DNA from: Lutibacter sp.
GTDB lineage: Bacteria > Bacteroidota > Bacteroidia > Flavobacteriales > Flavobacteriaceae
Assembly: GCF_016342705.1 (NCBI RefSeq)
Contig: NZ_JAEINV010000005.1
Coordinates: forward strand, 1-64,000
DNA length: 64,000 bases
Direction: 5' to 3'
In this document: one piece after another, positions 6,571 through 54,872 of the stretch
Position numbering within the stretch: position 1 is the stretch's first letter
Layout of the letters: each line of letters begins with the position of its first letter
Made by a program: the position numbers and the translations under genes
The notes under the pieces: model-generated
Told to the model about the DNA's origin: nothing
Database searches by the model: none
The model's input: only the letters and a program-made list of their open reading frames with translations

Positions 6571-8346
6571 ATGCGCTATTTATTTTTCATATTTTTTTGT
6601 TGTTTTTCTCTGCAATTTCAAGCACAGGAACAACAATTAGCATTTCAATATTTACGAAATGGTGACTATGAAAAAGCAGCAGCATTATACAAACCTTTAC
6701 ACGAAGAAAACCCTTACAATTCTATTTATTTAAACTATTTAATTGACTGTTATCAACAATTACAACAATTTGATACTGCTAATGAAGTTATAACTAAACA
6801 AATTAATACTTTAAAAAATCAGCAATATTTATTTATTGAAATTGGTTACAATTATCAATTACAATATTTACCAGAAAAGGCAGAGGAATTTTACAAAAAA
6901 GCGCTTAACGCAATAAATGAAACTCCAAATTTAGGTTACATTGTAGGTAAAACATTTCAAGATAATCATTTGTTAGATTATGCCCTATTAGCTTATAAAA
7001 AAACGATGGAATTAATTCCAAAAGCAAACTACAATTTTCAAATTGCTTTAATTTATGGTGAAAAAGGTGAAATTGAAAATATGTTTAATACATATTTAGA
7101 TATGATTTTAATTAATGATACGTATTTACCTACTTCAAAAAGTTATATGGGAAGGTTTATAACAGATGATTCAGAAAATGAAAATAATCTTATACTTAAA
7201 AAAATATTAATAAAACGTCTTCAAAACAATCCCATAACAAGTTGGAATCAATTATTAAGTTGGCTTTTTATGCAGCAAAAAGAATATGAAAAAGCACTAA
7301 TTCAAGAAAAAGCTATTTTTAAAAGAAATGAAGCTGGTTTAGAAAACATTATTGAAATTGGTAAAATTGCTTTTGAAAACAAATCTTACGAAGCTTCAAA
7401 AAATTGTTTCCATTTTGTATTGGAAAATATTTCAAATCTAGAAACAGAATTAACTGCAAAATTGTACTTACTAGAAATTGATATGAAAACAAACGCTTCA
7501 AATGAAAGCATTGAAAATCAGTTTCAACAATTATTTTTACAATATGGAAAAACTAAAAACACTATTGGAATACAAGCTATTTATGCCGAATTTTTAGCTT
7601 TCAAAAAGAATGAGCCTGAAAAAGGAATTGACGTACTTAAAGATGCTTTAAAAATACCTATTAATGAATTTCAAACTGGCTATTTAAAAACAAAATTGGC
7701 TGATATTTTAGTGTTTACTGGTAAATTTAATTCAGCTTTAATTTATTATACACAAGTTCAGAACGACCTAAAAAATCATACAATCGGACAAACTGCGCGT
7801 TTTAAAATTGCACAAACCTCTTATTTTAAAGGTGATTTTGAATGGGCACAATCGCAATTAAAAGTACTAAAAAACTCAACGTCGCAATTAATTTCGAACG
7901 ATGCTTTAGACTTAAATTTGTTAATTACAGATAATGCCGTAAAAGACAGTTTAAAAATAGCTTTAAAAACCTATGCTAAAGCCGATTTATTAGCTTTTCA
8001 AAATAAAAACCAACAAGCAATTGATACTTTGCAAGTTATTTTAAACAACTATAAAGGTCACCCAATTGAAGACGAAGCTTTATTTAAACAAGCGCAACTT
8101 TTTGAAAAAACAAATCAGTTCTCAAGCGCTGAACAAAATTATTTAAAAATAATATCCATTAATAATGATGATATTTTAGCCGATGATGCGCATTATTTTT
8201 TAGCAGAATTGTACTTAAATAAATTACAAAATATAGAAAAAGCCAAAGAGTATTACCAAAAAATTATATTTGAATATCCATCTAGCATATTTTTAGTAGA
8301 TGCTCGAAAAAAATTCAGAAATTTACGAGGAGACAACATTAATTAA
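6571..8346 (+). CDS. Tetratricopeptide repeat protein with signal peptide
   Basis: MRYLFFIFFCCFSLQFQAQ signal; repeated TPR-like helices. Confidence 0.8.
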   Translation: MRYLFFIFFCCFSLQFQAQEQQLAFQYLRNGDYEKAAALYKPLHEENPYNSIYLNYLIDCYQQLQQFDTANEVITKQINTLKNQQYLFIEIGYNYQLQYLPEKAEEFYKKALNAINETPNLGYIVGKTFQDNHLLDYALLAYKKTMELIPKANYNFQIALIYGEKGEIENMFNTYLDMILINDTYLPTSKSYMGRFITDDSENENNLILKKILIKRLQNNPITSWNQLLSWLFMQQKEYEKALIQEKAIFKRNEAGLENIIEIGKIAFENKSYEASKNCFHFVLENISNLETELTAKLYLLEIDMKTNASNESIENQFQQLFLQYGKTKNTIGIQAIYAEFLAFKKNEPEKGIDVLKDALKIPINEFQTGYLKTKLADILVFTGKFNSALIYYTQVQNDLKNHTIGQTARFKIAQTSYFKGDFEWAQSQLKVLKNSTSQLISNDALDLNLLITDNAVKDSLKIALKTYAKADLLAFQNKNQQAIDTLQVILNNYKGHPIEDEALFKQAQLFEKTNQFSSAEQNYLKIISINNDDILADDAHYFLAELYLNKLQNIEKAKEYYQKIIFEYPSSIFLVDARKKFRNLRGDNIN

Positions 8347-8386
8347 AGCACCTCAAATTATAATAATATTAAATAAAAACACAAAA

Positions 8387-8719
8387 ATGTACATATACAA
8401 CGTAACAACTAATGTAGATGAATCTATTCACGATGAATGGCTTAATTGGATGAAATCAAAACATATTCCTGATATGTTAGCCACCGGTAAATTTACAGTT
8501 GCAAAAATGAATTTAGTTTTAATTGATGAAGAAATGGGTGGCTCAACATATGCAGTTCAATATTCAACGGATAGTATTGAAACACTTCATAAATATTACA
8601 AAGAAGATGCACCAAAATTACGCGATGAAGCCATGAATTTATTTAAGGATAAAATTGTTGCATTTAGAACTGAATTAAAAGTTATTAACGAACAATTTAG
8701 TACAAGTATAAACAACTAA
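8387..8719 (+). CDS. DUF4286-like small protein
   Basis: [37 protein letters not shown]; internal ATG at 8387 used as start. Confidence 0.7.
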
Positions 8720-8723
8720 TTTT

Positions 8724-9500
8724 ATGAGTGTAAAAGCAAAAAAACACCTAGGTCAACATTTTTTAACGGATGAATTAATTGCACAACAAATTGCAGATAG
8801 TTTAATAGGAACTAACTATAAAAATGTGTTGGAAATTGGTCCGGGAATGGGTGTTTTAACAAAATACTTGCTTAAAAAAGATTTTACAACGCACGTTATT
8901 GAAATTGATACCGAATCGGTTGAATATTTAAAAGCACATTATTTAAATTTAGCTGAAAGAATAATTTCTAAAGATTTTTTAAAAATTAATATATCTGAAT
9001 TTTTTGGTGAAGAACAAGTAGCTATTATTGGAAACTTTCCTTACAATATTTCAACACAAATTGTTTTTAAAACATTAGAAAACAGGCATCAAATTCCAGA
9101 ATTTGCTGGAATGTTTCAAAAGGAAGTTGCTTTAAGAATTGCTGAAAAAGAAGGCAGCAAAGTATATGGGATTTTATCGGTTTTAACACAAGCTTTTTAT
9201 GATGTTGAATATTTATTTACGGTTCCTCCAACGGTTTTTAATCCGCCTCCAAAAGTAGATTCTGGCGTAATTAGATTGGTGAGAAAAGAAAATTACACAC
9301 TTCCTGTTGATGAAAAATTGTTTTACAAAGTGGTAAAAACAGCCTTTCAACAAAGAAGAAAAACCTTACGCAACAGTTTAAAAACTTTGAATTTATCGGA
9401 TAATTTAAGAGAAGATACTATCTTTGCCAAACGCCCAGAGCAATTATCTGTTCAGGAATTTATCAATCTCACTTCAAAAATAGAGAACGATGCCATTTGA
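8724..9500 (+). CDS. rsmA: 16S rRNA (adenine(1518)-N(6)/adenine(1519)-N(6))-dimethyltransferase
   Basis: [33 protein letters not shown]. Confidence 0.96.
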
Positions 9501-46508: not shown

Positions 46509-46637
46509 ATTATTTGCTACTTATCCTCAAAGCTAATTTACAAATAATAATTAAGAAGTATTTACTAAACCTCAGTAGAAATATTTTTACTATCCTTTTT
46601 TTAAAATTGCAAAATATTTGTAGTTAAAATCCATCAA

Positions 46638-46667
46638 TCTATTGATTCAATTCTTTAGTTGGTTGAA
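46638..46667 (+). promoter_or_regulatory. Putative LytTR operator A: TCTATTGAT-N12-TTGGTTGAA
   Basis: Direct repeats at 46638-46646 and 46659-46667, 21-bp period; 32 bp before TTTG of TACTTTG (46697-46703). Confidence 0.7.
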
Positions 46668-46696
46668 TGTTTTTTATTTATACACACTTGCAACGT

Positions 46697-46703
46697 TACT
46701 TTG
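46697..46703 (+). promoter_or_regulatory. Putative -7 element TACTTTG of the ferredoxin operon
   Basis: TTTG core 32 bp after repeat pair; 37 bp before ATG. Confidence 0.55.
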
Positions 46704-46740
46704 TTTCATAATAGTAAATGAATTTTGAAAACAAAGAATT

Positions 46741-46956
46741 ATGTCCATTGAAAGTATAAACGGTTGCGTAGGATGTGAGGAGTGCATAAAAAGCTGTCCT
46801 ACAGACGTAATTAGGTTAAATTCCACCACAAAAAAAGCAGAGATTTTATATCCGGAAGATTGTCAAATATGTCATTTATGCCGTATGTATTGCCCGGTAG
46901 ACGCTATTACAATTTCTCCTGAAAAAAGTATTCCAGTAATTGTATCATGGGGTTAA
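46741..46956 (+). CDS. Small 2x[4Fe-4S] ferredoxin
   Basis: CVGCEECIKSCP and CQICHLCRMYCP (two CxxCxxCxxxCP). Confidence 0.92.
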   Translation: MSIESINGCVGCEECIKSCPTDVIRLNSTTKKAEILYPEDCQICHLCRMYCPVDAITISPEKSIPVIVSWG

Positions 46957-46958
46957 TT

Positions 46959-47600
46959 ATGAAAAAACAACGTAATATATTTAGACTATTAGTACTTGCC
47001 GTACTTTTCATAATTGTACCCATAATATTATACCTCTTAGGAGATTTTTCAAAACGTAATTTTTTAATGGAAACATTATCAATCATTACAATTCTGGGAT
47101 TTACTTTATTTCTTTCACAATTTTTTTTAACTAGAATAAATCAAAAATTGGTAAAAGATATTAGAATGGTTAATGTGCTGAAAATTCACAAAATAATTGG
47201 ATACACTTTTATAATAATACTACTCTTTCACCCAATATTTATTATTGTGCCAAAGTTTTTAGATAATACTGTAGCACCTGTTGATGCCTTTTTAAAACTA
47301 ATTACAACTTTCAGTAGTTTGGGTGTTATATTAGGTTTAATAGCCTATGTATGTATAATTGTAATATTAATTACCTCATTCTTTAGGTTTAAGTTACATT
47401 TAAAATATAAAACTTGGAGAAGTTTACATGGCTATTTTACAATGCTATTTGTAATTACAGCAACTTGGCATGTAATTAATATTGGACGCCACAGCAATAC
47501 TCCACTCTCAATTTATTATGTATTAATGGTAGCAAGCGGAATAATATATCTGCTAAAAACCTACCTATTTAAATCTCCAAAAAATGAAAGAATTAATTAA
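46959..47600 (+). CDS. Ferric-reductase-like membrane cytochrome b-type protein
   Basis: Multiple TM segments with spaced His (HKIIGYTFIIILLFH; WRSLHGYFTMLFVITATWHVINIGRH). Confidence 0.78.
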   Translation: MKKQRNIFRLLVLAVLFIIVPIILYLLGDFSKRNFLMETLSIITILGFTLFLSQFFLTRINQKLVKDIRMVNVLKIHKIIGYTFIIILLFHPIFIIVPKFLDNTVAPVDAFLKLITTFSSLGVILGLIAYVCIIVILITSFFRFKLHLKYKTWRSLHGYFTMLFVITATWHVINIGRHSNTPLSIYYVLMVASGIIYLLKTYLFKSPKNERIN

Positions 47601-49323
47601 CAATATCTCTCGAAGAAAATTTATAACATTAGCTGGCGGAGCAGCAAGTTTTTCGGCATTAGCAGCAATGGGATTACCAACTGATTGGGCAACAAATAAC
47701 CCAGAAATTGATGTAGACTCCTTAAATATTGATAAAATAAGCACCGATGTTTTAGTAATTGGAGGTGGAATGGCAGGTCTTTTTGCTTCAGTAAAAGCAC
47801 ATGATGCCGGAGCAAAAGTTTTAATGGTTTCAAAAGGAAGATTAGGAGCTTCTGGACAAACCCCTTTTGCTAAAGGAATATTTGCCTATGTTCCTAAAAA
47901 AGAAAAATTAAGCATTGATGAATTTGCACAAGCCGTATCAAGATCAGCTCTAGGAACCAATAATCCTGCTTACACAAAACAATTAGCAGAACATTCACTA
48001 GATAGAGTAAATGAATTAAAACAAAGGGGATTTTTTGATTCTTCATTGTACAACAAAAGCTTTAGTAAACCCATAAACGAACGCAATATTCCTCTACAAG
48101 AGCGTGTAGTAATAACACATTTAATAAAAGAAAATAATAAAATTGTGGGCGCTGCAGGATTTAGTTTAGATTCTGAAAAAATTATTTTTTATGAAGCAAA
48201 GAGCGTGATACTTTGTACAGGAGCAGGTGGTTTTAAACCAAACGGATTTCCTATTTGCGATTTAACGCATGATGGCACTATAATGGCTTACAACATTGGT
48301 GCAAAAGTAACAGGTAAAGAATGGAACGATGGACATCCTGCAAAATCTGAAAATGCAGCAGCCTGTTATGATGGTTGGGGAGATATGTTTGAGAAAAAGC
48401 CTGAAACCACAAGTGTTGAAATTCGTCACGATTTAGGCATAGATATGAATTATACTGCATATATAAATGGTGGCGCTGCACAAATGGGACCTCCAGGAAT
48501 GGGAAAACAGGAAAACACAGTGGTAGGAGGCCCATATAGACCAGAGGAATTTAACAATGCTGGCGGTCATCCGGGTGGAGAAAAAGAAGGTGAAAAAAGA
48601 CCTCCAAGAAAAGAAGGTAAAGGAGGTCCTCCAGGAATGGGAGGTAGTGTAGTTGGTGGTTCTTCTGCCGGAATGTCTATTCACAAAGCTGAGGGAATAG
48701 TTCCCATAAATGATCAATGCGAGTCTAACATTCCAGGTTTATTTGCTGCAGGTGATGCTTTAGGGTCTTATATGGCTGGCGCAATTTACACGCAAATTGG
48801 TTCTTCATTAGCAGGTTCTGCAGTTCAAGGAGCTGTTGCAGGTAAAGCTGCTGCTAAGTATAGTAAAACTGTAAAAACAGCAAGTATTTCTTCAAGTAAA
48901 ATAAAAGAAATTCAAGAAGAAATTTTAGCACCATTAAAACGTGAAGCTGGTTACAGCGCTGCTTGGGTTACGCAAACATTACAAGGAATTATGATTCCTA
49001 ACTTTATAATTTATATAAAAAAGGAAAACTTATTAAAAGGCGCTTTGGCTTATGTTGAAGAATTAAGAGATCATCATTTACCAATGTTAAGAGCAAAGAA
49101 TTTTCATGAATTGCGTTTGGTACATGAAACAGCAAATATGATTGTTACTGCTGAAATGAAATTGAAAGCATCTATTATGAGAACTGAAAGTAGATGTAGC
49201 CATTACCGTTTGGATTATCCCAAAGTAGATTATGAAAATTGGAATGTTTGGATAAATATTTTTAAAGGTGAAGATGGAACTATGCAGTTTGAAAAACAAC
49301 CTTTTAATACTTGGCCCGTATAA
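47584..49323 (+). CDS. Tat-exported FAD-binding fumarate reductase/succinate dehydrogenase-like flavoprotein with Gly/Pro-rich insertion
   Basis: Twin-arginine NISRRKFITLAGGAASFSALAAMG; VLVIGGGMAGLFASVKAHDAGAKVLMVSKG; insertion GPPGMGKQ...KGGPPGMGG; overlaps upstream gene. Confidence 0.87.
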   Translation: MKELINNISRRKFITLAGGAASFSALAAMGLPTDWATNNPEIDVDSLNIDKISTDVLVIGGGMAGLFASVKAHDAGAKVLMVSKGRLGASGQTPFAKGIFAYVPKKEKLSIDEFAQAVSRSALGTNNPAYTKQLAEHSLDRVNELKQRGFFDSSLYNKSFSKPINERNIPLQERVVITHLIKENNKIVGAAGFSLDSEKIIFYEAKSVILCTGAGGFKPNGFPICDLTHDGTIMAYNIGAKVTGKEWNDGHPAKSENAAACYDGWGDMFEKKPETTSVEIRHDLGIDMNYTAYINGGAAQMGPPGMGKQENTVVGGPYRPEEFNNAGGHPGGEKEGEKRPPRKEGKGGPPGMGGSVVGGSSAGMSIHKAEGIVPINDQCESNIPGLFAAGDALGSYMAGAIYTQIGSSLAGSAVQGAVAGKAAAKYSKTVKTASISSSKIKEIQEEILAPLKREAGYSAAWVTQTLQGIMIPNFIIYIKKENLLKGALAYVEELRDHHLPMLRAKNFHELRLVHETANMIVTAEMKLKASIMRTESRCSHYRLDYPKVDYENWNVWINIFKGEDGTMQFEKQPFNTWPV

Positions 49324-49367
49324 TAGTAGTATTTAAATAATTAATATTTTTGGTTTGAATTAAGTTG

Positions 49368-49400
49368 AAAAAATCGGTCAGTCATAGGCCGATTTTTTTT
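49368..49400 (+). terminator. Rho-independent terminator after flavoprotein operon
   Basis: AAAAAATCGG-TCAGTCATAGG-CCGATTTTTTTT. Confidence 0.82.
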
Positions 49401-49485
49401 GTCCGTTTTGTAAAACCATTTTCATCAATAATAAAGTATAAGTTTTTTAAAGTTTATAAAGTTATTAGTGCTAAAGTATCCGAAT

Positions 49486-49515
49486 TTGGTTGATAAAATA
49501 CCTGAGTACATTGAT
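49486..49515 (+). promoter_or_regulatory. Putative LytTR operator B: TTGGTTGAT-N12-TACATTGAT
   Basis: Direct repeats at 49486-49494 and 49507-49515; 32 bp before TTTG (49548-49551). Confidence 0.75.
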
Positions 49516-49593
49516 TTTAGTTTCTAAAAATACACTCATTTCATTTCTTTGTTTCAGCAAATGATTAAATAACAACCTTTTAAAAATAAAATA

Positions 49594-50013
49594 ATGAAAT
49601 TAAAAATGAACAAAATTTGGAAAATGTTAGTTGTAGTATTAGTAATTACAACAACAGCTTGTGGACAACAAAGAGGTGGACAAGGTGACGGACAGCAAAG
49701 AGGTGGACAAGGAGGACCTCCTGCGTTACCAACAGCAAAAGAAATTAAAACTATGGTTAGTGATTTATCAAAAGAGATTCTTTTAAGTGATGAACAAGAA
49801 GCACAAGTTTTAAAATTATATACTGCACATTTTGAAGAAGTGAAAGAAAAAACAAGTGCTGGAAGACCAGATAGAAATGAAATGGAATCTTTAAAAACTT
49901 CATTTGAAAATAAAGTTAAATCCATTTTAACAAAAGATCAACAAATAAAATACGCTTCTTTTTTAAAGAAAAATCTTATGAAAAAAATAAAAAGTGATTT
50001 GAATAAGCATTAA
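49594..50013 (+). CDS. Spy/LTxxQ-like small lipoprotein with Gly/Gln-rich N-terminus
   Basis: MLVVVLVITTTACGQQRGGQGDGQQRGGQGGPPALP lipobox; LSDEQEAQVLKLY and LTKDQQIKYASFL. Confidence 0.75.
   Translation: MKLKMNKIWKMLVVVLVITTTACGQQRGGQGDGQQRGGQGGPPALPTAKEIKTMVSDLSKEILLSDEQEAQVLKLYTAHFEEVKEKTSAGRPDRNEMESLKTSFENKVKSILTKDQQIKYASFLKKNLMKKIKSDLNKH
49663..49716 (+). repeat. Two tandem 27-bp units encoding GQQRGGQGD/GQQRGGQGG
   Basis: GGACAACAAAGAGGTGGACAAGGTGAC / GGACAGCAAAGAGGTGGACAAGGAGGA. Confidence 0.85.
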
Positions 50014-50053
50014 AATATCAGTTTGAGTTAATAATTAAGTTTGGTTAAATTTT

Positions 50054-50092
50054 CCCCACATTTTAATTTCTTTAAAATGTGGGGATTTTTTT
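50054..50092 (+). terminator. Rho-independent terminator after Spy-like gene
   Basis: CCCCACATTTTAA-TTTCT-TTAAAATGTGGGG-ATTTTTTT. Confidence 0.9.
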
Positions 50093-50094
50093 AT

Positions 50095-50124
50095 TTGGTT
50101 GATAAAAAAAGCCAGTTCGTTGAT
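50095..50124 (+). promoter_or_regulatory. Putative LytTR operator C: TTGGTTGAT-N12-TTCGTTGAT
   Basis: Direct repeats at 50095-50103 and 50116-50124; 32 bp before TTTG of TACTTTG (50154-50160). Confidence 0.78.
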
Positions 50125-50193
50125 TTCTTTTCTTAAAACCTTGCATATCCATTTACTTTGTTCTCAAATAAACAAAACCACAAATACTAAATT

Positions 50194-50799
50194 ATGGAAT
50201 TTTTAGATATCCCAATTTTTGATGAAGATTTTTACAAAATGCTTTTTAGATTTTGTTTAAACATATTTTTTCTAACTATCATAATTAGGTTTTTATATTA
50301 TAAAAATTCAAAACGAAAAGACTATTTATTTACTTATTATATGATTAGTCTTATAGTATTTTTCTTATGCTTTACCCTAAAAAAATACAATTTAGACATT
50401 GGTATGGCGCTTGGACTTTTTGCAATTTTTGGAATTATTAGGTACAGAACTGATGCTATTCCCATAAAAGAAATGACCTATTTATTTATAGTTATTGGCG
50501 TTTCTGTAATTAATTCATTAGCTAACAAAAAAATGAGCTATTCAGAAATTTTAATCGCCAATACACTTATAATTTTTGTACTAACTATTCTAGAAAAATT
50601 CTGGCATTTAAAACATGAAGTCTCTAAAAAAATTACCTACGGAAATATTGAAAATGTAAAACCTGAAAATTATAGTTTGTTAAAACTAGATTTAGAGAAA
50701 AAAACTGGGTTAACTATTAATAGAGTTACAATTGGTGATTTAGATTTATTAAAAAATACTTCAAAGGTTACAATTTACTATTACAACGGAAAACCATAA
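50194..50799 (+). CDS. DUF4956 membrane protein
   Basis: MALGLFAIFGIIRYRTDAIPIKEMTYLFIVIGVSVIN. Confidence 0.85.
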   Translation: MEFLDIPIFDEDFYKMLFRFCLNIFFLTIIIRFLYYKNSKRKDYLFTYYMISLIVFFLCFTLKKYNLDIGMALGLFAIFGIIRYRTDAIPIKEMTYLFIVIGVSVINSLANKKMSYSEILIANTLIIFVLTILEKFWHLKHEVSKKITYGNIENVKPENYSLLKLDLEKKTGLTINRVTIGDLDLLKNTSKVTIYYYNGKP

Positions 50800-50813: not shown

Positions 50814-51515
50814 ATGAAAAAAATAAAACTTCAAGCATATCTAATTATTTTGTCTATAACAATTTCAAGTATTGGTTATACTCAAAACAACAATGATTTT
50901 GGGTCTTGGTCTACTTTAGCATTGGAATATAAATTCAATAAAAAATTAAGTTTCGGATTAGAAGAACAACTTAGATTAAAAGAAAACATATCGCAAATAG
51001 ATGAATATTTTACAGAAATAAGCACTGAGTACGATTTAACAAAAAACTTCTCAATTGGCGCTGCTGCAAGATTCATTAAAGAAAATGATAATGAAGGAAA
51101 AATTCAAGGATATGAAAATCATTTCAGATTTCAATTAGATGCAGCTTATAAACATAAAATTGATCAGTTTTCACTTAAATACAGACTTCGTTATCAAAAT
51201 AAAAATGAATTAGGAATTAGCACATCTGAAGGCGACTATGCTAACCAACATATTCGATTAAAAACTTCAATAGGCTATAATATTAAAAATTGGAAATTAG
51301 ATCCTGAATTTTCTGCAGAACTATTTAATCACTTCGAAAAAAATGAAGAAAATGGGTTTGATAAATACAGATTATCTATAGGAACTGATTACGATTTGAA
51401 AAAATATGGAAAAATAAATTTGTACTATCAATTTGAAAAAGAACTTAATTCAACAAATCCAAATTCCTTAAATGTAATAGGACTTAAATATAAATACACT
51501 TTTAAAAACAATTAA
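50814..51515 (+). CDS. DUF2490 beta-barrel-like outer membrane protein
   Basis: Signal peptide; FGSWSTLALEYKFNKKLSFGLEEQLRLKEN; alternating beta-strand pattern. Confidence 0.82.
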   Translation: MKKIKLQAYLIILSITISSIGYTQNNNDFGSWSTLALEYKFNKKLSFGLEEQLRLKENISQIDEYFTEISTEYDLTKNFSIGAAARFIKENDNEGKIQGYENHFRFQLDAAYKHKIDQFSLKYRLRYQNKNELGISTSEGDYANQHIRLKTSIGYNIKNWKLDPEFSAELFNHFEKNEENGFDKYRLSIGTDYDLKKYGKINLYYQFEKELNSTNPNSLNVIGLKYKYTFKNN

Positions 51516-51517
51516 AC

Positions 51518-52957
51518 ATGAAAAATTCAACTATTAAAATTGCATTACTTTTTATTGCAATTTCTATCGCATCTTATGTGCATATTAGCTGTTCTGATGA
51601 TGAAACAATTTCTGATGCAGATGCAACTGAAACAACTGAGACAACTGACGCAGTTGTAGACGATTTAGACTTTACACCAACAGATTGGACAACCGAAACT
51701 CACAGCAAAGATGCAGACCCAAATTACACAGAAGTATTTGATAATACTGTTGTAAAAAGATTAGACTTTGTAGTATCAAACACTAACTGGAAAGCCATGT
51801 TAACTGATATGACAAGCCTTTACGGAACCTTTGGGTCATCAAATTCTGGCCCTGGTGGTGGTGGCACAAGTTTTTCTGATGAAGACCCAATTTTTGTTCC
51901 AGCTTCTGTATTTTATAACGGAAAAGAATGGTATAAAGTAGGTATTCGTTTTAAAGGAAATTCTAGTTTATCATCAGCCTGGGAATCAGGAATTTTAAAA
52001 CTTTCTTTTAAATTAGATTTTGATGAATATGAAGATGATTATCCACAAATTAAAAATCAACGTTTTTACGGTTTCAAAAAATTTAGTTTAAAAAATAATT
52101 ATGATGACGATGCTTTATTAAGAGAAAAAGTTGCAGCAGAAATTTTTAAAAATGCTGGTTTAGCTGTTTCAAACACTTCGTTTTATACCTTATATGTTGA
52201 CTACGGTGATGGACCACAATATTTTGGACTATATACATTGGTTGAAGAAATTGATGATACAGTTATTGACACTCAATTTTCAAGCGGTGATGGAAATTTA
52301 TACAAACCTGAAGATGATGGTGCAAATTTTGCAAACGGATCTTTTAATGAAGATGGATTTGAAAAGAAAACAAACGAAGATGAAGCTGATTGGAGCGATG
52401 TTAAAGCAGTATTTAGTGCCTTACACGCTAGCACTAGAACAACAGATCCTGCAGCTTGGAGAGCAGGTTTAGATGCTGTTTTTGACACAGATGTATTTCT
52501 TAATTATTTAGCTGTAAATACAGTAATTCAAAATTGGGATACTTATGGTAGAATGGAACACAACTATTATTTATATAACAATCCTTCTACTAATAAACTA
52601 ACTTGGATTCCTTGGGATAATAATGAAGCTTTACAATCAGGAAAACAACAAGGTGCTTTAAACTTAAATTTCTCAAATCTTTCTGGTGATTGGCCATTAA
52701 TATCCTATTTATATGCAGACAGCGTTTACAAAGCAAAATATGACGCCTATGTAAAAGCAACTATAGATGGCCCATTTGAAACAACATACATTCAAGGTGT
52801 TTATGATACTTATGCAGATTTAATAGAACCATACGCAACAACAGAAGTTAAAGGATACTCCTTTTTAAGTAGCAGCAGTTCATTTTATTCTGGAATTAGC
52901 ACCATAAAATCTCATGCAAGCAGCAGAGCAAGTGCAGTAACAACTTATTTAAAATAA
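51518..52957 (+). CDS. CotH kinase-like surface lipoprotein
   Basis: Lipobox HISCSDDE; VVKRLDFVVSNTNWKAML; LREKVAAEIFKNAGLAVSNTSFYTLYVDYG; NWDTYGRMEHNYYLYNNPSTNKLTWIPWDNNEAL. Confidence 0.88.
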   Translation: MKNSTIKIALLFIAISIASYVHISCSDDETISDADATETTETTDAVVDDLDFTPTDWTTETHSKDADPNYTEVFDNTVVKRLDFVVSNTNWKAMLTDMTSLYGTFGSSNSGPGGGGTSFSDEDPIFVPASVFYNGKEWYKVGIRFKGNSSLSSAWESGILKLSFKLDFDEYEDDYPQIKNQRFYGFKKFSLKNNYDDDALLREKVAAEIFKNAGLAVSNTSFYTLYVDYGDGPQYFGLYTLVEEIDDTVIDTQFSSGDGNLYKPEDDGANFANGSFNEDGFEKKTNEDEADWSDVKAVFSALHASTRTTDPAAWRAGLDAVFDTDVFLNYLAVNTVIQNWDTYGRMEHNYYLYNNPSTNKLTWIPWDNNEALQSGKQQGALNLNFSNLSGDWPLISYLYADSVYKAKYDAYVKATIDGPFETTYIQGVYDTYADLIEPYATTEVKGYSFLSSSSSFYSGISTIKSHASSRASAVTTYLK

Positions 52958-52969
52958 ATTGATTTTAAT

Positions 52970-53017
52970 ACCTTTGTTTATACATTAAATCATAAATTGT
53001 ATAAACAAAGGTGTTTT
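52970..53017 (+). terminator. Long-stem hairpin/terminator between cotH-like and kinase genes
   Basis: ACCTTTGTTTATACA (52970-52984) and TGTATAAACAAAGGT (52998-53012), perfect 15-bp arms, followed by GTTTTTAA. Confidence 0.65.
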
Positions 53018-53049: not shown

Positions 53050-54162
53050 ATGAGCTTAATTAAAAAAAAATACAAATTCAATTATTTTGAGCCTTTAATA
53101 ATTATTGCCTTTTGGGCATTATTATTTGCATCTCCTCTCTTATTTGGACGATTTGAAGACCAAATTGAGTGGCAAAAAGTACAAACTGCTTGGTTAAACT
53201 TTTTACCTTTATTAGTGTTGTTTTTCATCAATCGTTTTGCTTTATTACCTAGGCTTTTTTTTAAAGGAAAAAGAGTTGGTTATTTTTTGAGTACCATTTC
53301 AATAATAGTCCTTTTTGCTGTTAATATTCATTTTTTTAATGACATTCCAACACAAAAAAGACCACGACCAGAAGGAATTGAAAATTCAGGATTATTAACA
53401 GAGCCTCCAAGAGGTTTTGATAGAATGCCACCTCCAAATATCAGACCTTCAGAATCTGCACCTCAGCCAATTCCTCCATCAATAAACTTTTTAATTTTAG
53501 CCGTTTTATTGGTTGGTTTTGATACTGGATTACAAATTTCTATGCGTTGGTCTAGTTTAGAAAAAGAAAAATTTAAACTTGAAAAAGAAAGTGTTGAAAA
53601 CCAATTGGCTATTTTAAAAAACCAAGTAAGTCCGCACTTTTTTATGAATACTTTAAACAATATTCACGCATTAGTAGATATTGATTCTGAACAAGCAAAA
53701 ACCTCTATTATTAAACTCTCTAACCTAATGCGTCATTTATTATATGATTCTGAAGGTACAAAAACACCCATAAAAAAAGAAATATCCTTTATTGAAAGTT
53801 ATATTGAATTAATGAAGCTACGCTTTTCTGAAAAAGTAAAAATAACAGTAGATATTCCTACCGTAATTCCAGAAAAATTAATTCCACCACTACTTTTCAC
53901 CTCATTAATTGAAAATGCTTTTAAACATGGAATTAGTTATAATTCAACTTCTTTTATTGAAGTAAAAATGAGTTTTACAGAAGAAAATTTAATTTTTATA
54001 ATTAAAAATAGCAATCCTAATTTCAATAAAACAAATGAAACAAAAGGAATTGGAATTGAAAACACTAAAAAGAGATTAGACCTTATTTACAGCGAAAATT
54101 ACACTTTAAATGTTGATGAAAATAAGGAATTTTACATGATAAATTTAAACGTACCACTATGA
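53050..54162 (+). CDS. LytS/YesM-type sensor histidine kinase with 4 TM helices and Pro-rich loop
   Basis: NQVSPHFFMNTLNNIHALVDID; LLFTSLIENAFKHGI; GIGIENTKKRLDLIY; loop RPRPEGIENSGLLTEPPRGFDRMPPPNIRPSESAPQPIPP. Confidence 0.94.
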   Translation: MSLIKKKYKFNYFEPLIIIAFWALLFASPLLFGRFEDQIEWQKVQTAWLNFLPLLVLFFINRFALLPRLFFKGKRVGYFLSTISIIVLFAVNIHFFNDIPTQKRPRPEGIENSGLLTEPPRGFDRMPPPNIRPSESAPQPIPPSINFLILAVLLVGFDTGLQISMRWSSLEKEKFKLEKESVENQLAILKNQVSPHFFMNTLNNIHALVDIDSEQAKTSIIKLSNLMRHLLYDSEGTKTPIKKEISFIESYIELMKLRFSEKVKITVDIPTVIPEKLIPPLLFTSLIENAFKHGISYNSTSFIEVKMSFTEENLIFIIKNSNPNFNKTNETKGIGIENTKKRLDLIYSENYTLNVDENKEFYMINLNVPL

Positions 54163-54872
54163 TTACATGCATAACAATTGATGATGAACCATTAGCTTTA
54201 AAACAAGTGGTTAGTTATATAAATAAAACACCCTTTTTAGAATTAAAAGGCAATTTTGAAAGTCCAATTGAAGCATTTTCTTTTATTCAGGAAAACACTA
54301 TTGATTTGATTTTTATTGATATTAACATGCCTGATTTAAACGGATTAGATTTTGTAAAATCATTAAAAAATCCGCCAAAAATTATTTTCACTACGGCTTA
54401 TAGTGAATATGCTTTAGAAGGTTTTAAAGTAGATGCTTTAGATTATTTGTTAAAACCTATTGATTATGCTTCGTTTTTAAAAGCAGCCAACAAAGTCAAA
54501 GAATGGTTCGATTTAAAACAAAATGCTGCTGAAGAAATAAAAAGTAATGACGATTATTTATTCATAAAGTCTGAATATAAAATTGTACGTGTAAAATTAG
54601 ATGACATCACCTACATTGAAGGAATGCGCGAATATGTTCGAATTCATTTAACAGTTGAAAAACCAATTATGACTTTGCTAAGTATGAAGCTTTTAGAGCA
54701 ACAATTACCTTCAAGCAAGTTTATGCGTGTACACAGATCTTACATTGTTAATTTAACAAAAATCTCCACAATTGAAAGAAACAGAATTGTATTTGATAAA
54801 ACGTATATTCCTATAAGTGAACAATATAAAGATGTTTTTCACCAATTTATTGAAAAGAATTTTTTACAGTAA
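54159..54872 (+). CDS. LytTR-family response regulator
   Basis: CITIDDEPLALKQVVSYI receiver; LTKISTIERNRIVFDKTYIPISEQYKDVF LytTR domain; overlaps kinase gene by 4 bp. Confidence 0.95.
   Translation: MITCITIDDEPLALKQVVSYINKTPFLELKGNFESPIEAFSFIQENTIDLIFIDINMPDLNGLDFVKSLKNPPKIIFTTAYSEYALEGFKVDALDYLLKPIDYASFLKAANKVKEWFDLKQNAAEEIKSNDDYLFIKSEYKIVRVKLDDITYIEGMREYVRIHLTVEKPIMTLLSMKLLEQQLPSSKFMRVHRSYIVNLTKISTIERNRIVFDKTYIPISEQYKDVFHQFIEKNFLQ

Follow-up and report, generated by a model that had tools for sequence, protein, structure and literature searches.

The window, the whole 64,000-nt stretch of Lutibacter sp. DNA analysed here, carries three consecutive transcription units, A, B and C, followed by overlapping genes for a LytS-type histidine kinase and a LytTR response regulator (Table 1). 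Unit A encodes a small ferredoxin, a membrane protein resembling ferric reductases and a flavoprotein resembling fumarate reductases, the last with a Tat-like signal (SRRKFI) read from its sequence. Among 301 family genomes, this flavoprotein is present in two, each of which also carries the regulator. Unit B encodes a small Gly-rich Spy-like secreted protein, which has no Pfam or NCBIfam match, and unit C a DUF4956 membrane protein (97% identity with its Lutibacter maritimus counterpart), a DUF2490 protein and a CotH kinase-family protein. Most relatives carry a VTC polyphosphate-polymerase-like gene between operator C and DUF4956; here the gap spans 50125–50194, and no VTC gene was found at this locus or anywhere in the whole genome. 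Gly/Pro/Arg-rich low-complexity stretches are common to the Spy-like protein, the flavoprotein and the kinase.

Table 1. Features of the three units and the adjoining two-component system, in window coordinates
Feature	Coordinates	Strand	Basis or remark
Operator A, half-site 1	46617–46625	+	TTTGTAGTT
Operator A, half-site 2	46638–46646	+	TCTATTGAT
Operator A, half-site 3	46659–46667	+	TTGGTTGAA; 32 nt before TTTG
Promoter A, −7 box	46696–46703	+	TTACTTTG
Small 2x[4Fe-4S] ferredoxin, unit A	46741–46956	+	Pfam Fer4
Ferric-reductase-like membrane protein, unit A	46959–47600	+	PF01794
Fumarate-reductase-like flavoprotein, unit A	47584–49323	+	PF00890, PF02910
Terminator-like hairpin ahead of operator B	49367–49399	+	
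Operator B, two half-sites	49486–49515	+	41.8 bits, model without window sites
Promoter B, −7 box	49544–49551	+	TTTCTTTG
Small Gly-rich Spy-like secreted protein, unit B	49594–50013	+	Named by sequence reading
Terminator-like hairpin ahead of operator C	50053–50085	+	
Operator C, two half-sites	50095–50124	+	45.9 bits, model without window sites
Promoter C, −7 box	50153–50160	+	TTACTTTG
DUF4956 membrane protein, unit C	50194–50799	+	PF16316
DUF2490 protein, unit C	50814–51515	+	PF10677
CotH kinase-family protein, unit C	51518–52957	+	PF08757
Conserved terminator-like hairpin between CotH and kinase genes	52968–53014	+	Long, strong
LytS-type histidine kinase	53050–54162	+	PF06580
LytTR response regulator, proposed to control A, B and C	54159–54872	+	PF00072 + PF04397; motif co-occurrence

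Both domains of the regulator score beyond the cut-off (receiver PF00072, E = 3e-19; LytTR PF04397, E = 2e-21), and the LytTR signature FhRhHRS (PMC4227749) appears in it as FMRVHRS. Its best named family match is BtsR (NCBIfam NF008677), which has the same domain order, but at 133 bits against an equivalog cut-off of 246 we rejected that identity; the libraries searched contain no named counterpart of the two-component system. We likewise rejected assignment to the LytTR Regulatory System (LRS) class, as the regulator is paired with a histidine kinase and the search showed no autoregulatory operator. Neither in the window nor in the fetched loci of relatives does the operator motif occur upstream of the kinase–regulator pair, and a strong hairpin precedes the kinase, so the pair may be expressed by partial readthrough from promoter C, or else from an unseen promoter. 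Every Lutibacter locus that carries the regulator keeps this hairpin, as does the family genome G260, and it is a possible attenuator of the pair.

The initial annotation described an identical direct-repeat operator at the three promoters: TCTATTGAT-N12-TTGGTTGAA at A (46638–46667), TTGGTTGAT-N12-TACATTGAT at B and TTGGTTGAT-N12-TTCGTTGAT at C. All of these coordinates are correct, and at each promoter exactly 32 nt separate the last half-site from the TTTG of the −7 box. The repeat itself is shared, with 9-bp direct repeats and a 12-bp spacer that fits the definition of a LytTR operator (spacer 11–13 bp; PMC6193735), but the operators are similar rather than identical, and A is poor in the register first given, scoring 5.5 bits there against 23.1 bits one half-site upstream (46617–46646). 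Operator A thus has three half-sites with a 21-bp period, the first of which had gone unnoticed; its counterpart is present in L. maritimus, in loci L161 and L163 and in Maribacter locus L040. Three half-sites, some degenerate, recur with the same period in the ferredoxin promoters of the window, of these four relatives and of L155, where TTACTTTG is placed with its TTTG 32 nt after the third half-site.

Bacteroidota sigma-A promoters have a −7 box, TAnnTTTG, at −12 to −5 (PMC9723704). The candidate −7 boxes of A, B and C read TTnCTTTG, with TTTG in place but T for A at −11; the same TTnCTTTG is kept at the same spacing in relatives. The −33 region holds a conserved TTT block without its G. 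Taking the −7 box as −12 to −5, the second, promoter-proximal repeat would end at about −41, some 4–5 nt before the TTT block, and the centre of the pair would lie near −55. Terminator-like hairpins precede operators B and C, as had been annotated.

How specific is this motif? In the genome-wide scan that the initial annotation had proposed, a strict pattern matched the 3.63 Mb genome twice, at B and C only, with no match expected in shuffled window sequence. The bare core, RTTGAW-N15-RTTGAW, was rejected as a diagnostic, with 227 matches in the genome against 69 for a reversed-pattern control, a surplus that is probably due to coding bias. Because the bare core is uninformative, an operator claim requires evidence of conservation, and the significance of the predicted sites lies in the extended motif TTSRTWGATRAAAT-nnn-CCAGTTSRTTGATT together with the fixed promoter spacing. 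A sequence-only model built from 37 external sites found two significant matches in the genome, C and B (scores in Table 1), with noise starting at 15.7 bits, and split operator A into two weak pieces of 13.3 and 13.0 bits. On the window, a 39-site matrix ranked C (41.7 bits), B (32.1 bits) and A, in its upstream register, ahead of a next-best site at 10.2 bits. Support for the putative operator A therefore comes mostly from conservation in relatives and not from the whole-genome model score.

That conservation was traced through loci from the genus Lutibacter, two other family genomes (G260 and G120), Maribacter and Marinifilum, which belongs to another order. The collection comprised 80 DUF4956 loci, as well as LytTR orthologues from the genus and family together with as much as 20 kb of surrounding sequence. 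An early footprint of the 350 bp upstream of DUF4956 in the 80 loci recovered the motif in L. maritimus only, because in most relatives the VTC gene intervenes between operator and DUF4956 and most of the loci lack the regulator. A position matrix whose training set excluded the sites of the window and of L. maritimus settled on 39 sites, so that the phylogenetic footprinting suggested at the outset now places the motif outside the window before the same target genes. The consensus, the extended motif given above, is followed by the TTT block at −33 and TTnCTTTG at −7. Every one of the 39 sites is followed by a start codon on the same strand, that of a ferredoxin, Spy-like, VTC/DUF4956 or CotH gene or, in a few species, of one of the further genes named below. 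TTTG stands at +32 in 25 of them and at none of the other offsets from 20 to 45; counting TTTA as well, the figure is 32 of 39. In 1.2 Mb of DUF4956 loci that do not have this regulator in the vicinity, no match reached 16 bits, and no motif was found near LytTR relatives of 50–60% identity (L157–L159, L170 and L171), which therefore do not belong to the same regulon.

In those few species the sites precede genes that we named by sequence reading. They encode DUF1566-like lipoproteins in some Lutibacter (L163:5719–7014 and 8067–9338, L164:10720–12012 and L166:13038–14294) and, outside the genus, a small secreted protein of EF-hand-like type in G120 (L156:774–1055).

The motif also travels with the regulator. 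In the genus, 38 genomes were compared: all 11 that have the LytTR orthologue contain sites above 28 bits, and none of the 27 that lack it does (hypergeometric p = 8e-10, uncorrected for relatedness). This value overstates the independent evidence, since the genomes are related and motif and regulator sit in one locus, so that their co-occurrence is in part a matter of the module being inherited as a whole. A stricter-filter scan of 199 relatives returned these 11 genomes alone. Matches in the genus genomes without the regulator are partial and score at most 24.5 bits, and the two that we inspected have no site of at least 14 bits with the 30-nt matrix. In genome G302, a site lies about 50 kb from the regulator, upstream of a Spy-like gene. 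For G260, G120, Maribacter and Marinifilum, the sites were located in the fetched loci, and there, as in Lutibacter, the LytTR gene next to the motif is this orthologue.

Taken together, the conserved motif, its constant targets, the promoter spacing and the co-occurrence largely support the proposal that the LytTR product governs a regulon of three units, most likely as an activator. We put the probability at roughly 0.88 that the two-component system controls units A, B and C through the shared operator, and a genuine regulon, of a familiar type, is very probable. LytTR monomers would bind the 9-bp half-sites on one face of the DNA at the 21-bp period, two per operator and probably three at A. 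With the promoter-proximal half-site ending at about −41, a few nucleotides upstream of the weak −33 element, the bound regulator would most likely activate the sigma-A polymerase from a fixed position. Activation from the repeats is suggested by the repeat centre near −55, the conserved TTT block lacking its G and the precedent of AgrA and HdrR.

Several alternatives deserve weighing. The operator could be real and the regulator a repressor, or a protein acting both ways: both signs are known among LytTR regulators, the sign is unreadable from sequence, and PlnC activates while PlnD represses through the same repeats (PMC2714321). We consider this unlikely, given that the repeats lie wholly upstream of the −33 and −7 elements, at one fixed distance from which AgrA and HdrR activate, and that the −33 block lacks its G. 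It is more improbable still that a different LytTR protein occupies the operator. The genome encodes eight, seven besides this one, and the operator geometry is common to the family, but the motif follows this orthologue through all 11 genus genomes, is absent from those without it, adjoins this gene in all five groups sampled and is missing from the loci of its 50–60% relatives. Chance resemblance in AT-rich intergenic DNA, to which the abundance of the bare half-site core might point, is scarcely credible against conservation across species, the fixed +32 spacing and the absence of the extended motif from the 1.2 Mb of control loci.

The preferred arrangement, with the LytTR regulator activating all three units, has close precedents. 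Published LytTR operators are 9-12-9 repeats directly upstream of the −35 element (PMC6193735). At the agr P2 and P3 promoters of Staphylococcus aureus, a LytTR dimer of AgrA occupies a pair of direct repeats immediately ahead of the promoter, as proposed here, with the repeat centre near −60 (near −55 for the window pair) and with weak promoters that need the activator, as those of the window probably would (PMC4227749). Unlike AgrA, whose signature is FFRCHNS, the window regulator has a different half-site sequence, a Bacteroidota sigma-A promoter and another sensor and set of targets. The HdrR/BrsR LRS of Streptococcus mutans also uses 9-bp repeats 12 bp apart, 4–11 bp upstream of the −35 element (PMC6193735), but there the LytTR protein is autoregulated and partnered by an inhibitor membrane protein, whereas the window has a histidine kinase and a receiver-domain regulator with no operator before the pair. 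The architecture is that of classic LytTR systems such as AgrA and HdrR. What the literature searched does not contain is the motif, its setting in a Bacteroidota promoter and the make-up of the regulon; in these open-access papers we found no defined LytTR operator from Bacteroidota.

The output would be an envelope module comprising the Tat-exported flavoprotein, the membrane cytochrome-like protein, the ferredoxin, the Spy-like protein, DUF4956, DUF2490 and the CotH kinase. In the literature, DUF4956 appears in an accessory cluster of pel (PMC7112168), and our search returned only one further entry, an iron response in Bacteroides thetaiotaomicron. Gram-positive pel clusters (PMC7112168) join CotH, a polyphosphate polymerase and DUF4956 as an accessory trio, as do the relatives with VTC; the likeness concerns these accessory families. 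The window lacks VTC and adds DUF2490, the Spy-like protein, the redox trio and LytTR control. One tentative picture, which we hold to be possible but rather less than even, is that the LytTR system runs an envelope programme in which extracytoplasmic protein phosphorylation by CotH with VTC/DUF4956 is coupled to electron transfer by the Tat-exported flavoprotein, with the third half-site tuning the redox operon.

The two-component system gains a predicted binding motif, with a candidate regulator and a set of targets. A single switch would link CotH, VTC/DUF4956 and DUF2490, families of poorly known function, with an electron-transfer trio, so that the function of the whole module may be tested through one regulator.
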